In this document: positions 4,288-31,807 of the stretch, in pieces
How the letters are laid out: each line of letters starts with the position of its first letter
Numbering within the stretch: position 1 is the stretch's first letter
Assembly: GCA_902806065.1 (NCBI GenBank)
Contig: CADCVE010000001.1
Span: 186,001 to 250,000 of the forward strand
Length of the DNA stretch: 64,000 nt
Origin: an uncultured Rubrobacteraceae bacterium
GTDB taxonomy: Bacteria; Actinomycetota; Rubrobacteria; Rubrobacterales; Rubrobacteraceae
Direction: 5' to 3'
Program-made: the position numbers and the translations under genes
The notes under the pieces: model-generated
What the model was told of the DNA's origin: nothing
Databases searched by the model: none
What the model saw: the letters and a program-made list of their open reading frames with translations, nothing else

Positions 4288-5088
4288 ATGGGTGCGCTGG
4301 CGTTTATGCAGGTAAGCCAGGAAGAGTTGAAGAAAGAGATCCTGCACACGTGGGAGACTGGCAGGGACTGGGCTATTCCGATACAGATCGGTCCGGTGGA
4401 CATCTCCATAAACAAGGCCGTGTGGTTCATGTTTTTCGGGGCGGCCGTGACGTTCTTGCTATTGTTCGTCGGTAGCAGGCTGCTCAAGTCCAGGCCGGGT
4501 GCGTACCAGGTGATCGTGGAGGAGCTCTATGGCTTCGGGCGCAACCAACTCGCCGGACAGATGACCCAGGAGGGACAGAAGTTCCTCCCCTTTACACTCT
4601 CCCTCTTCGTATTTATTCTGGTGCTCAACCTCATCGGGCTCGTTCCGGGCGCATATCCAGTAACAAGCAACATCTCATTCACCTTGGGTTTGGCTGCTTT
4701 TGCCGTCATCACCTACAACTTCGTGGGTATCAAGCGTAACGGTCTCGGGACTTACCTGAAGAGCCTCGTGCCGCCTGGCATGCCGGCGAAACCGATCATG
4801 GTCCCGTTCATGTTCTTTGTCGAAGGTCTCCAGCAGTTCATCACTCAGCCGCTCACGCTGGCGATGCGGCTCTACGCCAACATCCTGGCTGGGCACCTGA
4901 TCATCTTCGTCTTCCTCGGCCTGATCCTGTACTTCGGGGCCTTGAGCGTCGTCCCGCTACTCTCCGTGCCGATGGCGGTGGTGTTCTATGCGTTCGAGAT
5001 CTTCGTCGCGTTCATTCAGGCTTACATATTCGCTATACTCACGCAGGTTTATATAGAGTTGGCGATGAACGCGGGGGAGGATCACTAG
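4288..5088 (+). CDS. atpB: F0F1 ATP synthase subunit a
   Basis: LAMRLYANILAGHLI, FEIFVAFIQAYIFAILTQVYIELA. Confidence 0.97.
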   Translation: MGALAFMQVSQEELKKEILHTWETGRDWAIPIQIGPVDISINKAVWFMFFGAAVTFLLLFVGSRLLKSRPGAYQVIVEELYGFGRNQLAGQMTQEGQKFLPFTLSLFVFILVLNLIGLVPGAYPVTSNISFTLGLAAFAVITYNFVGIKRNGLGTYLKSLVPPGMPAKPIMVPFMFFVEGLQQFITQPLTLAMRLYANILAGHLIIFVFLGLILYFGALSVVPLLSVPMAVVFYAFEIFVAFIQAYIFAILTQVYIELAMNAGEDH

Positions 5089-5161
5089 AGAGGGTAGGGA
5101 GGCGGGCAAGATCGCCCGCGCAAAGAGTAGTCAATGAAGCGAAAGGAAGGAGTGGTAGGGT

Positions 5162-5443
5162 ATGTTGGCAGCAGCAGTTATAGAGGTGTTGAGCGTTGTG
5201 ATGGCTCTGTTTCAGGCGTCGGGGGACGTGAAGATGATCGGGGTCGGCCTGGCGGCCGGTACGGCGGTCATCGGGCCGGGAGCGGGGATGGGGTACCTCA
5301 TCGGGCAGACCATAGCGAGCATCCACCGTCAGCCGGAGGCGTTCGAGCAGACGAGAACGCTGATGTTCCTCGGCATTGGGCTGGTAGAGGCGTTCGCGTT
5401 GTACGGCATAGTCTTTGCCCTACTCATAGCTTTCGTCCTTTAG
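5162..5443 (+). CDS. atpE: F0F1 ATP synthase subunit c
   Basis: Two-helix c subunit, IGPGAGMGYLIGQTIASIHRQPE, GLVEAFALYGIVFALL. Confidence 0.97.
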   Translation: MLAAAVIEVLSVVMALFQASGDVKMIGVGLAAGTAVIGPGAGMGYLIGQTIASIHRQPEAFEQTRTLMFLGIGLVEAFALYGIVFALLIAFVL

Positions 5444-25585: not shown

Positions 25586-25660
25586 GGTGATCGTAGCTCA
25601 GTAGGCAGAGCATCGGGTTGTGGTCCCGAAGGTCGCGGGTTCGAGCCCCGTCGGTCACCC
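25586..25660 (+). tRNA. tRNA-His (GTG)
   Basis: Acceptor GGTGATC/GGTCACC, anticodon loop TTGTGGT, T-arm GCGGGTTCGAGCCCCGT. Confidence 0.93.
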
Positions 25661-25708: not shown

Positions 25709-25800
25709 CTGACACCACGCTGACACCACCGGTGACGGCGGTCCTCCAGCGGGTTTCTAGTAGCGCTCACTCAGAAGTTCTTTATTAGGGGTGATTTCTC

Positions 25801-27282
25801 GTGGTCGAGATGCGGTGGGAGAGAGATATGGAAGAAGCGATGGAACTCATCCATCGCATACAGACTGCTCACGGCGGCAGACTCGCAGAGAGCGAAGCAC
25901 GTGAGGAGCTTGGCCCTTGGGTGACTGACGCTGCCAAGAGAGCGGAGCGGCTCTCTTGGCTGGCGATCAAGGGATCGCCAGCGGTCCTGATGGTTACCTA
26001 CGGGGGACGTAAGGCGCTCGACGCGGCTCTTGCGAGTAAGAACGCCGTTCCCCCGCCGCACTGGTTGGGTGGCGCGCTTGTTCCCGTTCGCAGTCCGACC
26101 GGGCCGGTGCTGCTGCCCGGACCCATCAAGTCTTACGAAGAGGCGCAGAAGAGAGCCTTGGAGGAGGGTATTCTCACCCAAGAGGACATAGACCGCATCG
26201 CACGCTCGCCGAGGAGGGAAGATCAACCTGGAGAGCCGGAAGAATACCGTCCGCTGTACGAGTCGACGTTCCCCGGTAGACGCTGGTTTATGATCGCCCC
26301 CGCATACACAGAGCAGCATCCGTTGGGTGGCGGTAAGCTAGACCCTGCGGGCTATGAAGGTGCTTATCAAGTGACGGCTACACTTACCCGCCGCGGCTCC
26401 CCCAACATCCCCTACGTCTACGTGTCAGATCCGAACATGATGGAAGGCGACTCCCATCTCCGGTTACCCGAATTGACGGGAGAAGGCGGCGCCGTAGGAG
26501 TGCTGTCTATCGTGCACACCTCTTATGAAGACGCAGACACCGCGTTCGAGCTCGTGCCCAACCGACAGGGTAGGTTAGGCAAGATACGTACTGTGCTTAG
26601 GGCGGAGAGCGTAGGAGATGCCCACGAGAAGGCGTATCGTCTCCTGAACCCCTTTTTGTGTGACCTCTCCTACAGGTACGATATCCCAATCGAGGTCCTG
26701 CAGATGAACGTTGCCGAGTTGGCGACCCTGACTGTGGGCGGTGTGAAGGATGACGACTTTCACGAGAAGACGTTCGATCACGAGCAGTTTCTGGGAGACG
26801 GTCTGAATTACGGAGAGTTGACCCATTACGAGTTCTTCACCCGTCTCTACAGGGAGGGGGTCAACTCGTCAAGTGTGGATTACGGATTCTTGTGCTTCTA
26901 CCGCGTTGCAGAGGGGATCATCAAGCTACGCCGCAAGACGATCATCGAGCAGGAAGGCAAATCGCCAAACGAGGTTAGCGGCCCCAGCGTGGTTTCGGAG
27001 GTGGTGGAAGGAGATGAAGCGTCCGAAGCATTTCCGGCGGATATGCTGGGCGAGTCCGTGTGGACCGCGTTCAAGGGCCTTGAAGACGATCGTACCAAGG
27101 TGGCTCACGCTTTCTTCCATAGCGAAGATCCCTTGGAAGGTCACGCCGACATAATCTCCGACCGGCTCGAAGCCGAGGAGCAGGCGGGAATTCGGCGTGC
27201 TCAAGCGCGGTTCATCGCCCGTCGCCTTATGAAATCTATGTACTTCTACTCCAACGAATCTGCGGAAGGTTCAGAGAAGTAG
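25801..27282 (+). CDS. Uncharacterised protein, HEPN-like C-terminal region (possibly MauJ-like)
   Basis: 493-aa ORF; C-terminal ...FLCFYRVAEGIIKLRR...DDRTKVAHAFF contains an Rx4H motif in a helical context; sole cargo between the 43-bp repeats. Confidence 0.6.
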   Translation: MVEMRWERDMEEAMELIHRIQTAHGGRLAESEAREELGPWVTDAAKRAERLSWLAIKGSPAVLMVTYGGRKALDAALASKNAVPPPHWLGGALVPVRSPTGPVLLPGPIKSYEEAQKRALEEGILTQEDIDRIARSPRREDQPGEPEEYRPLYESTFPGRRWFMIAPAYTEQHPLGGGKLDPAGYEGAYQVTATLTRRGSPNIPYVYVSDPNMMEGDSHLRLPELTGEGGAVGVLSIVHTSYEDADTAFELVPNRQGRLGKIRTVLRAESVGDAHEKAYRLLNPFLCDLSYRYDIPIEVLQMNVAELATLTVGGVKDDDFHEKTFDHEQFLGDGLNYGELTHYEFFTRLYREGVNSSSVDYGFLCFYRVAEGIIKLRRKTIIEQEGKSPNEVSGPSVVSEVVEGDEASEAFPADMLGESVWTAFKGLEDDRTKVAHAFFHSEDPLEGHADIISDRLEAEEQAGIRRAQARFIARRLMKSMYFYSNESAEGSEK

Positions 27283-27292
27283 TGACTATATC

Positions 27293-27466
27293 CTAGCCAA
27301 ACGCCTCTACTAAGCCGTCCACGGCGTCGCCGCCTATGCCCTCCATGAGGTGCGAGTATGTGTCCATCGTCTGCGTGATCGAGGAGTGCCCGAGTAGCGA
27401 CTGGACGATCTTCGATGCTGGTGAAGTTTGAAGAAGACCGTGGCGAACCTATGGCGGGGACTGTGT
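27293..27466 (-). pseudogene. Tyrosine recombinase/integrase C-terminal remnant (frameshifted)
   Basis: Reverse strand reads NPHSPRHRFATVFFKLHQHR(-1 bp)KIVQSLLGHSSITQTMDTYSHLMEGIGGDAVDGLVEAFG*. Confidence 0.8.
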
Positions 27467-27509
27467 GGGTTGTGGTCCCGAAGGTCGCGGGTTCGAGCCC
27501 CGTCGGTCA
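27467..27509 (+). repeat. Partial tRNA-His 3' half (att-like copy 2)
   Basis: 43 bp identical to 25615-25657; no tRNA 5' half present. Confidence 0.85.
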
Positions 27510-27832: not shown

Positions 27833-28594
27833 CTAGAACATTATTGGATCGACCGCTGCCGGATCAACCGCCACCGGGTCAACCAAAGCCGGGTCAACCA
27901 AAGCCGGGTCGACCAAAACTGGGTCGACCAGAGCCGGGTCAACCAAAGCTGGGTCGACCAAAGCTGGGTCGACCGCTACCGGGTCGAGCACGATCGTATC
28001 GGTCAACGCCGGATCGACCAACGTCGGGTCGATCACTGTTTCGTCGAGCATCGGCTGATCGAGCACCGCTGGATCTATCGCTGCCGAGTCTTCCAACACT
28101 GGCTCGACCGCCGCCGGGTCAGACGCCCCGCCATAGGGGTTCGCGAAGCCAATCGGGGTACCGACCAGGTCCATGGGATAGTACCCGACCACCTGATCCA
28201 CCTCGTTGGCCATGACGACTGTGTTGTCGCCCACGTACATCCCAACGCCGTCCGGGTAGACCACCACGTCGCCGGGAACGGGCGTGTCGCGGGTAGGGTA
28301 TGCGCTCAAATACGCCAGGTGGTCCCAGGGTGCGTTGGCATCGACGCCTGCACTCCTCAGGGCATGGCGGACCAGACCGGTGCAACTGAACGAGCCGCCC
28401 CCGTCGGTACCCCACCCGTAGGGCATGCCCACCTGCCCCGTCGCCGCAGCCAGAGCGTCGCTTGCTGAGCCTCCACCGGTAGCATCACCCTGTTGTAAGC
28501 CTCCCCCTGTCTTGGCGCTCGCCAAGATCGTGACCGAGAGGATAGCAGCAATTATTAGACCTAGAAGCAGGATCGGGTTAACCCTTCGAGGCAT
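27833..28594 (-). CDS. NlpC/P60-like exported protein with C-terminal [VIL]DPxx 5-residue tandem repeats
   Basis: ATG at 28594 with upstream GGAG; signal/TM MPRRVNPILLLGLIIAAILSVTILASA; domain GMPYGWGTDGGGSFSCTGLVRHAL...PGDVVVY; then ~19 five-residue units. Confidence 0.8.
   Translation of the reverse strand: MPRRVNPILLLGLIIAAILSVTILASAKTGGGLQQGDATGGGSASDALAAATGQVGMPYGWGTDGGGSFSCTGLVRHALRSAGVDANAPWDHLAYLSAYPTRDTPVPGDVVVYPDGVGMYVGDNTVVMANEVDQVVGYYPMDLVGTPIGFANPYGGASDPAAVEPVLEDSAAIDPAVLDQPMLDETVIDPTLVDPALTDTIVLDPVAVDPALVDPALVDPALVDPVLVDPALVDPALVDPVAVDPAAVDPIMF
27843..28122. repeat. 15-bp tandem repeat array encoding (VDPAL)n
   Basis: Consensus ccgggtcgaccaaag; near-identical units at the low-coordinate end, degenerate toward 28.1 kb. 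Confidence 0.9.
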
Positions 28595-28918
28595 AGCTTT
28601 CGGGCTCCTTCTGATAGCTCGTATTTGGCTTTCCACGGGGGATCTCTCCGAGTCCCCCCTCCTATGGCTGCGCACTGTAGGGAACGCGCTGGTGATGCGC
28701 AATGCCCCTTTTGCCGCAACAAAGCGGCCAAGGGGTCACAAAAGGCTTATCTAAAGGAAATGTTGTTTCCTTAGCGACACGTTGTCTTAATAAAAATTAA
28801 CATTGGTAACCTCTCGGCAAGGCCTGTTGGCCGATTTCTCGCCATCCTCAGATCTCCGGCCCTCGACTGCGAGGGCTAAGGACAGGCAATAGGAAGAGAG
28901 CCTATACAAATGCTTCGT

Positions 28919-29182
28919 CTAACCACCGACTGCGTCTCCGCCGGTGCCTTCCAGCAGGTGCGAGTACGTGACCATCGTCTGCGTGATGGACGCATGGACC
29001 AGGAGAGAATGAGCGATCTTCGGATGCTGGCAATGGTTGAAGAGGGCTGTGGCGAACGTTCGGCGGAGACTGTGGAAGTTGAAGCCCTGATCCCCAAGAT
29101 CCACACCAATACTGCAATCGGGCAACGATGACCAGCCTCGTTGCTGTGCTTGAGGACGGCATAACTCATGGGCAACAGGCAC
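28919..29182 (-). pseudogene. Second tyrosine recombinase C-terminal remnant
   Basis: FNFHSLRRTFATALFNHCQHPKIAHSLLVHASITQTMVTYSHLLEGTGGDAVGG*. Confidence 0.8.
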
Positions 29183-29406: not shown

Positions 29407-31440
29407 TTGTCTTCTAATACAGCAACAAGGGTGGGATTACTAGGCCTCCCGGAGGCGCTTTTGAGCCGTCGGGATTGGGTTTACCTGCTCAGTCTTCTGA
29501 TCCCTTTCGTGGTCTACAACCTGTTGCTGAAGGCTCTAGTCCTGTCTTCACGAAACGTCGATACTACCGGGGGGTTTACCGTTTCGACTACCCGCCTCCT
29601 GGCATACGCGATGTGGTCGGATGTATTCTTCGTTCTGGGGTACGTATTGCTCTGGATCGGGCTTTTCGCTATCGTGCGCACAGGTGCTTTACGTTGGGGC
29701 GTGCTGGTTCTCTTCCATGCCACCGCGATACTCGTGGTGGCGCTCAAGACGATCGCCTACCAGTACATCCAGGTAACCGGCACCACGCTCGACTATACGA
29801 TCATTGCTTTATGGCTCCCCAGGGCCGATGAGATCGGGCCGATGCTCGTACAGGGGATTTCATCCTCGGCTTGGGTGATTCTCTTGGTTGCCCTCTCCTA
29901 CGCGGCTTTGGGTCCCTGGCTTATAACGCGCTTCATCGTCCGATGGCGAGGGTGGCCGAGTACAACGCCCTCGACCGGGAGCCCCATGAGTACTCCTGTT
30001 TTTAGCTCCTTTGTGCTGTGTCTGCTGGCGTTCGGATTCGGTTTGCTATCGCTCCAAGAGGGCTTCAACCCGTACGACGAGTATCTCCGGCTCACAGGCC
30101 AGGAGTCGGAGGCGATCCTGCATATCCATAGACCGTTGGTTAGGGATCCGGTCGTCAACGTGGCGGTTAGCGCGGCTGAGGAGTTGCGGCGCGGGGCATC
30201 ACAGGACGCTGCTTCCTACGCGACCGTCGCGGACTCGCCGCCGGCAAGTCTCGTGCCCACGGGGTCCGAGCAGCGCAACGTCGTTATGGTCTTTCTCGAG
30301 TCAACACGCTCACAGTCAGTGACGCCTTACGTTCAGAGCCTGGCCACAACGCCCTTCTTGAATGAGCTGGCTAAGAACAGCCTACTCGCGGAGCGGGCTT
30401 ACGGGAGCGTGCCTTTTACCTCTAAGGCGAACGTCGCGGTTAACTGCGGTATCTTTCCGAACCCCGTGCAGATCTCTTATGGTCTTGCGCCCGAGGCCGG
30501 CCCGGGCGGCATACCCGCCAGGTGCCTACCCGACCTTCTGAAAGACCAGGGCTACGCCAGCGCTTACTTCACGACATCGGAGAAGGATTTCGAGGATTTC
30601 GGAGACCTCGTAGCCAACTTCGGATACGAGGAACTCCACTCATACGAGACCATGGACAAACAGGAGTACGTGAACTTGCGCGGTATGGGTCTCTCCGGCG
30701 ACGAGGCTATGTTAAAGCCGAGCGAGGAGTGGCTAACGAAGCAGAAAGAGTCGGGTACGCCTTTCATGGCCACTTACCTGACTGCCGTCACCCACTACCC
30801 ATATATGGTGCCAGAAGGTTACGAGCAGGAGAGGTTCGCCGAGGATGAGGATCTCAACCGCTATCTGAACTCCATCCGGCTCCAGGACATATTTCTGGAG
30901 AGTCTCTTCGATCATTACAAGGATCTCGATCTTTACGACGATACGGTCTTCGTCATCCTCGCGGATCATGGCGAGGGCTTCGGCGAGCACGGCATCTACA
31001 CGCACGGCAACATACCCTACGAAGAGGGTCTGAAGATACCCATGATCGTCCACGATCCCCAGCGGTTCGAGAATGGCGAGCGCGTCGAGGCCCCGGTGAA
31101 CCAGCTGGACACCCTCCCGACCATAGCGGACCTGTTGGGCTACGAGATCGACGGCGGAGCGTATCAGGGCAGCTCGATCCTCAGCCCACAGCTACCCGAA
31201 GATCGCTCGCTAAAGTTCAGCTGCTGGGCCGCGGAAGAATGCCTGGTGAGCCTCCAGGGTACCGAGAAGTACATCTACTTTTACGACAACCGGCCAGACC
31301 AGCTCTTCGACCTATCCGAAGACCCGCTAGAGCAGAACGACCTGGCGGCCGAGCGCCAAGAAGACGTGGAGGAGAGACGCAATGAGCTTCTCGAATGGCG
31401 GTCTAGAATCGACGCTACGTATAGGGGACCGCAGAGGTAG
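29407..31440 (+). CDS. LTA synthase / alkaline-phosphatase-superfamily sulfatase-like membrane protein
   Basis: N-terminal multi-TM region, then VVMVFLESTRSQSVTPY, ILADHGEGFGEHGIYTHGN, YQGSSIL. Confidence 0.88.
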   Translation: MSSNTATRVGLLGLPEALLSRRDWVYLLSLLIPFVVYNLLLKALVLSSRNVDTTGGFTVSTTRLLAYAMWSDVFFVLGYVLLWIGLFAIVRTGALRWGVLVLFHATAILVVALKTIAYQYIQVTGTTLDYTIIALWLPRADEIGPMLVQGISSSAWVILLVALSYAALGPWLITRFIVRWRGWPSTTPSTGSPMSTPVFSSFVLCLLAFGFGLLSLQEGFNPYDEYLRLTGQESEAILHIHRPLVRDPVVNVAVSAAEELRRGASQDAASYATVADSPPASLVPTGSEQRNVVMVFLESTRSQSVTPYVQSLATTPFLNELAKNSLLAERAYGSVPFTSKANVAVNCGIFPNPVQISYGLAPEAGPGGIPARCLPDLLKDQGYASAYFTTSEKDFEDFGDLVANFGYEELHSYETMDKQEYVNLRGMGLSGDEAMLKPSEEWLTKQKESGTPFMATYLTAVTHYPYMVPEGYEQERFAEDEDLNRYLNSIRLQDIFLESLFDHYKDLDLYDDTVFVILADHGEGFGEHGIYTHGNIPYEEGLKIPMIVHDPQRFENGERVEAPVNQLDTLPTIADLLGYEIDGGAYQGSSILSPQLPEDRSLKFSCWAAEECLVSLQGTEKYIYFYDNRPDQLFDLSEDPLEQNDLAAERQEDVEERRNELLEWRSRIDATYRGPQR

Positions 31441-31521
31441 GAGTACACAACACACGGCAACGCTCTCGCGTCCTTCGCTCTAACGGAGACTAGTAGTCGG
31501 CTATAATCCCAGCGGTTCCCG

Positions 31522-31569
31522 TCGGCTTGTGCTCCCGAAGGTCGCGAGTTCAAGACCCGCCGGTCACCC
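31522..31569 (+). repeat. Degenerate tRNA-His 3' half (att-like copy 3)
   Basis: Matches 25613-25660 at 42 of 48 aligned bases by eye. Confidence 0.65.
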
Positions 31570-31689: not shown

Positions 31690-31770
31690 GCGAGAGTGGT
31701 GGAATGGTAGACACGCTAGATTTAGGATCTAGTGCCTTCGGGCGTGCGGGTTCAAGTCCCGCCTCTCGCA
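31690..31770 (+). tRNA. tRNA-Leu (TAG)
   Basis: Acceptor GCGAGAG/CTCTCGC, anticodon loop TTTAGGA, variable arm TGCCTTCGGGCG. Confidence 0.92.
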
Positions 31771-31807
31771 CATCGCCTGCGGGGTCGGTCGAGAAGAGTT
31801 GGGGTGT

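Follow-up and report, generated by a model that had tools for sequence, protein, structure and literature searches.

We find that the gene at 25,801 to 27,282 of the window (the whole stretch of 64,000 nucleotides of an uncultured Rubrobacteraceae bacterium that was analysed) probably encodes a self-contained HEPN-type RNase effector of phage defence or abortive infection, carried as the cargo of a degraded tRNA-His element. We put the probability of this reading, in which RNase activity and phage protection are predicted properties, at about 0.6. It is favoured because the protein keeps the HEPN active-site pair and because its homologues often lie beside anti-phage genes. HEPN RNase defence effectors are themselves of a known kind; what is new here is the re-reading of the MauJ family, to which the protein belongs. 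The gene and the parts of its product are as follows.

25801..27282, + strand: gene of the MauJ-family HEPN-like protein, 493 aa, GTG start, intact
25801..26277, + strand: residues 1-159, lineage-specific N-terminal region, common to the window protein and the L012 relative only
26278..26754, + strand: residues about 160-318 (~160-330), beta-rich middle domain, family-wide (alignment A3 and model)
26824..27267, + strand: residues about 342-489, MauJ/HEPN-like helical domain (PF17419; C-terminal AlphaFold model with pLDDT 83.3 and pTM 0.79)
27091..27108, + strand: R431-x4-H436, predicted catalytic dyad, the sole two invariant columns in 16 homologues

The first-pass annotation had described this ORF as the only intact CDS between two 43-bp repeats, and so it proved to be, since every other ORF of at least 50 aa between the repeats either overlaps it or is an antisense shadow. 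Its nearest relative, in genome G036 (L012 6310-7773), is 63% identical. For this one pair dN/dS is about 0.22 at a dS of 1.28, and in the C-terminal part it is 0.16, a value that is only rough because dS there is 2.0; as judged from these substitutions, the ORF is under purifying selection. A promoter scan gave no sigma-70-like promoter upstream of the gene. The resemblance to MauJ-annotated proteins, which the annotation had noted, was upheld by Pfam, where residues 348-437 match PF17419 (MauJ) with 31.6 bits against a gathering cut-off of 28. This was the single Pfam match at E-values up to 10, with neither ApeA_NTD1 nor HEPN_Apea among the matches, and the PADLOC, NCBIfam and PHROGs models did not match the protein. 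The annotation had also left some 350 N-terminal residues without a recognised family. This stands for residues 1-159, which are lineage-specific, but not for residues ~160-330, which are no orphan but a beta-rich domain found throughout the family. Residues 1-159 are helical and, by eye only, winged-helix-like; the model is not confident there (N-terminal pLDDT of 25-55 in the whole-protein model, with which a fold search is meaningless). The middle domain (residues about 160-318) is possibly a sensor.

The C-terminal domain carries the string RTKVAH, in which an Rx4-6H signature of HEPN nucleases had been seen. The motif is indeed an Rx4H at residues 431-436. Both R431 and H436 are invariant in alignment A3 (11 sequences), and they form the only invariant columns in alignment A4, which holds 16 diverged C-terminal domains from Rubrobacter-like genomes, Acidobacteria, Chloroflexi and others (at least 3 phyla). 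The modelled domain is a helical bundle. Its third helix spans domain residues 95-103 and finishes at H436, with the pair, R98 and H103 in domain numbering, in its last part; in HEPN proteins the rule is an Rx4-6H at the end of helix 3 (PMC3710099).

When the C-terminal model was compared with PDB folds, MtlR came at rank 1 and HepT/HEPN-MNT structures at ranks 2, 3, 5 and 12, with no E-value below 1. Fold searches overall returned no significant match (best E about 1, TM about 0.35), and the same was true of the search against BFVD. Aligned to the HEPN domain of ApeA by hhalign, the domain has helix 2 and the R/H pair in register, with a score of 14.6 that falls within the shuffled range (maximum 16.9). 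A PDB sequence search gave nothing meaningful; one match, FGD6 at E 1.4, aligned an R-x4-H and was taken as chance. The structure check that had been proposed thus came out well for where the two residues sit, at the close of helix 3 in a confident model, but did not return a HEPN fold with significance. Because no fold or profile score is significant, the assignment is made on motif, position and rank, and on these we hold the C-terminal domain to be very probably HEPN.

The gene lies in an island between two tRNA genes, with the following features.

25587..25660, + strand: tRNA-His (gtg), host gene of the integration site
25615..25657, + strand: att copy 1, 3' part of tRNA-His, exact 43-bp match to 27467-27509
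25710..25729, + strand: direct repeat TGACACCAC-GC-TGACACCAC with an 11-bp period, between tRNA and gene, candidate arm-type sites of the integrase
27293..27448, - strand: C-terminal stump 1 of a tyrosine integrase, convergent with the gene, its DNA similar to the G032 integrase
27467..27509, + strand: att copy 2, exact
28919..29182, - strand: C-terminal stump 2 of a tyrosine integrase, resembling both stump 1 and the G032 integrase
31524..31566, + strand: att copy 3, degraded 3' end of tRNA-His matching at 37 of 43 positions, some 120 bp ahead of tRNA-Leu, the spacing of the empty site
31690..31771, + strand: tRNA-Leu (tag), far flank of the island

The sibling genomes G030, G031 and G033 show the empty site, with tRNA-His and tRNA-Leu only 137-152 bp apart, compared with 6 kb in the window; a trigger-factor-like gene follows the tRNA pair in G031 and G033. 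The third, degraded copy of the tRNA-His 3' end lies about where the native 3' end is expected, and because of this copy the entire stretch of 25.66-31.57 kb is taken to be insertion. It consists of at least two stacked parts, one with the ORF and stump 1, the other with an NlpC/P60 gene, stump 2 and an LTA-synthase-like gene. Both landmarks that the first-pass annotation had given for the island are exact: the 43-bp repeat is identical at 25615-25657, inside tRNA-His, and at 27467-27509, and the gene does end 10 bp before an integrase stump, whose stop codon is at 27293-27295. The minus-strand translation following the ORF ends in ...SKIVQSLLGHSSITQTMDTYSHLMEGIGGDAVDGLVEAFG-stop, as a tyrosine integrase does, and about 51 C-terminal codons are kept in this stump, with GHSS and DTYSH motifs. 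In the sibling genome G032 an intact tyrosine integrase of 384 aa, convergent in the same way, comes immediately after tRNA-His. Both window stumps match its C-terminus at the DNA level and, relative to G032, the window ORF sits in the short spacer that separates the tRNA from the integrase stop codon.

The other genes at this site have features of their own. The NlpC/P60 protein (27833-28702, - strand) has a C-terminal run of five-residue VDPAL-like repeats, encoded by 15-bp DNA repeats, 14 copies in register. The LTA-synthase-like gene follows tRNA-His in the window (29407-31566), where it directly precedes the degraded tRNA-His copy, and stands before tRNA-His in G038 (L064 1838-4047), a placement that hints at rearrangement or tRNA duplication, not simple stacking. 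The tRNA-His/tRNA-Leu gap of G038, a sibling genome (L064 3974-7989), holds unrelated cargo beside an integrase remnant, namely ORFs of 561 aa and 216 aa without a family match. The 216-aa one contains RNGLDH, an Rx4H-like string; this may be another HEPN-like cargo, or else a disrupted gene.

A further family member, in G031 (L014 1579-2814), also follows a tRNA 3' fragment and converges with an integrase, here 42 bp away. An Rfam search with the fragment found nothing, and it was placed instead by a 55-bp match, 96% identical, to DNA of the same genome that overlaps the complete tRNA-Val(tac). Between tRNA and gene, both islands have the direct repeat TGACACCA-n3-TGACACCAC (in the second island at L014 1503-1522). 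It occurs once in the window, where 0.00 occurrences are expected, and among the retrieved loci it is present in these two islands only. We infer from their sequence and placement that these direct repeats may be arm sites of the integrase.

At an E-value of 1e-5, five of the 40 genomes from the family have a homologue, as do five of the 398 from the phylum, and PF17419 is present in about 1% of Actinomycetota genomes and of the sampled Acidobacteria and Chloroflexi genomes; the distribution is rare and patchy. With the queries used, no relatives turned up in IMG/VR, GenBank phages or PLSDB plasmids, except for mau operons on plasmids, and this is therefore not a common phage or plasmid gene. 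An adjacent integrase is absent for most homologues. The homologues fall into deep subfamilies that share the beta-rich middle and the helical C-terminal parts and differ in their N-termini: long and helical in the window protein and its G036 relative, short and HTH-like by eye in L014, L015 and L016, with a SEC-C zinc motif in L013 and L020 (Pfam) and in L019, L021 and L022 (by eye), and without any extra N-terminus in L023. An uncharacterised protein of ~411 aa (L020 8501-9736; L022 253-1494) is a conserved upstream partner of the SEC-C MauJ genes in Acidobacteria, and its L020 copy has no Pfam, PADLOC or NCBIfam match. The G036 genome has two MauJ-family genes of different subfamilies (L016 5127-6380; L012 6310-7773). 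The second of these, the 63% relative, is flanked by a dnaX-like gene on one side and a YbaB-recR-like pair on the other (names by eye); directly after it, at L012 5854-6248 (- strand), come an ORF that resembles ribbon-helix-helix antitoxins and a PIN-like remnant, both identified by eye.

The neighbourhoods of the homologues are rich in defence genes. An ApeA-type HEPN gene lies directly downstream of the MauJ homologue of L013. The neighbours at L023 are PDC-M30A, an integrase-like gene, a methylase that is fused to an Mrr-like domain, and DarT and DarG, which a transposase separates; those at L020 are TerY, PP2C and STK_OB (TerY-P) with another integrase-like gene. Shedu SduA is found at L026, a type III methylase with a weak type III REase match at L066, and a PIN gene at L019. 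At L065 an MNT-like PDC-S09 nucleotidyltransferase gene (5050-5430) lies 52 bp upstream of the MauJ homologue, an arrangement that resembles a HEPN/MNT pair with MauJ in the place of the toxin.

To put numbers on this, PADLOC families at 1e-15 amount to 44 in 87 neighbour ORFs (a count that leaves out two methylases) versus 7 in 87 control ORFs from 12 arbitrary regions of the same genomes, which span 115 kb versus 153 kb for the neighbours, with some loci short. The control matches (SspH, mad, DpdF and the like) were judged by hand to be generic. Six of the 14 homologue loci contain a named defence system, as does none of the 12 controls, which corresponds to a one-sided exact probability near 0.01 in this small, hand-classified sample. 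The homologues hence adjoin defence genes and integrases, as a defence reading had led the annotation to expect. They are also not confined to metabolic operons, the outcome it had named as contrary, and only one derived clade with a lost active site is found in methylamine operons. Next to the window gene itself no other defence gene was noticed, and the ORF list of the window holds no antitoxin-sized partner or MNT nucleotidyltransferase beside it.

In Paracoccus denitrificans, mauJ sits between the amicyanin gene and mauG. In the five mau-operon MauJ proteins examined the His is replaced by A, Q, G, G and G (A versus P at this column reflects a one-column shift between two alignments), and the Arg is lost in three of the five. 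They form one clade with support of 100/99. Both R and H are kept in the window protein and in all other non-mau homologues spanning the site, including L066, the nearest row to the mau clade, which lies beside type III RM genes and whose placement is tentative because of its long branch. This pattern fits a loss of the active site in mau MauJ after recruitment to metabolism, parallel to the active-site loss of MtlR in a metabolic operon (PMC3710099). Because all five examined mau-operon proteins have lost the His, the family name misleads. The window gene lies outside any mau operon, between tRNA-His and an integrase stump; with no mau neighbours and with its active site kept, it is ruled out as a methylamine gene. 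The mau-operon clade does show that some family members serve a non-defence role. Among the papers searched, none connects MauJ or PF17419 with HEPN or with defence and none on the function of mau MauJ was found; the HEPN survey of 2013 (PMC3710099) mentions neither methylamine nor mau in its main text.

These data allow the defence reading to be weighed against others. The gene might be a HEPN gene that serves the mobile element, as an addiction or stabilisation module or as a regulator of integration near the arm sites. Its position between candidate arm-type repeats and the 3' end of an integrase gene, seen in two islands, agrees with such a role, as do the L065 homologue, which follows an MNT-like gene directly in the manner of HEPN/MNT pairs, and the helical N-termini of the tRNA-linked subfamilies, HTH-like by eye. 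However, the window gene has no antitoxin-sized partner next to it, it has stayed intact under apparent purifying selection though the integrase is dead, and most homologues have no neighbouring integrase; we consider service to the element unlikely.

It appears more unlikely still that the protein is an RNA-binding regulator of a non-catalytic or housekeeping type, a role that has been proposed for MtlR and is implied for the mau-operon MauJ. The name-giving protein lies in the mau operon and has lost its catalytic residues, and the fold-search ranking is headed by MtlR, itself a HEPN protein encoded in a metabolic operon, but R and H are both kept in the window protein and in the other non-mau homologues spanning the site, the neighbours are as a rule no metabolic operons, and the distribution is patchy. 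Lastly, the domain could be a helical bundle unrelated to HEPN, in which the Rx4H has another role. Such a bundle would match no HEPN protein significantly in fold or profile, and this is what the searches gave; the sole two invariant residues nevertheless fit the HEPN motif in both spacing and helix position, and HEPN structures crowd the top fold-search ranks, which makes this the least probable of the readings.

HEPN RNases cut RNA in a metal-independent manner. As a defence effector, the window protein would have its C-terminal HEPN domain held silent by the N-terminal and beta-rich middle domains until a phage cue, the predicted trigger, is sensed. Two HEPN domains would then pair, presumably by dimerisation, and R431 and H436 would cut the predicted target, RNA, without a metal. 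Translation would stop, and the infected cell would consequently release no phage.

For the family as a whole, we see about an even chance that MauJ is an unrecognised HEPN family whose members each act as a stand-alone RNase defence system of one gene, whose N-termini can be swapped (SEC-C, HTH-like, none) and which has spread among Rubrobacter relatives on minimal tRNA islands, gene and integrase pointing at each other, and that mau MauJ is an exapted descendant whose active site was lost. If this is true, a family filed under methylamine metabolism consists mainly of mobile defence RNases that current defence catalogues miss, and the origin of mau MauJ from a HEPN protein gone dead, as in the case of MtlR, becomes testable. 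Islands of this type, with one cargo gene set against an integrase, would give defence genes a minimal means of transport.

Among known systems, the HEPN abortive-infection family ApeA (ApeA_NTD1 and HEPN_Apea) shares with the window protein a beta-rich N-terminal domain followed by a C-terminal HEPN-type domain with Rx4H, but there is no significant sequence similarity, no ApeA Pfam match, and the N-terminal domain is of another family. The HepT toxin of HEPN/MNT toxin-antitoxin pairs (PDB 6m6w, 8xeh) is an Rx4H HEPN bundle, as is predicted for the window protein; HepT, however, is short, acts on its own as a toxin and has an MNT antitoxin, whereas the window protein has 493 aa and no MNT neighbour, the adjacent MNT of these type VII systems being present at L065 only. 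MtlR, the HEPN protein of the mannitol operon and the first-ranked fold, has the HEPN bundle that is predicted here, but the window protein retains the motif and is located outside a metabolic operon. With MauJ of the mau operon (PF17419; Paracoccus, Methylobacterium) it has in common the Pfam domain, above the gathering score, and the order of a beta-rich part and then a helical domain; it differs in keeping R and H, in its extra N-terminal region and in its residence in an integrase island.
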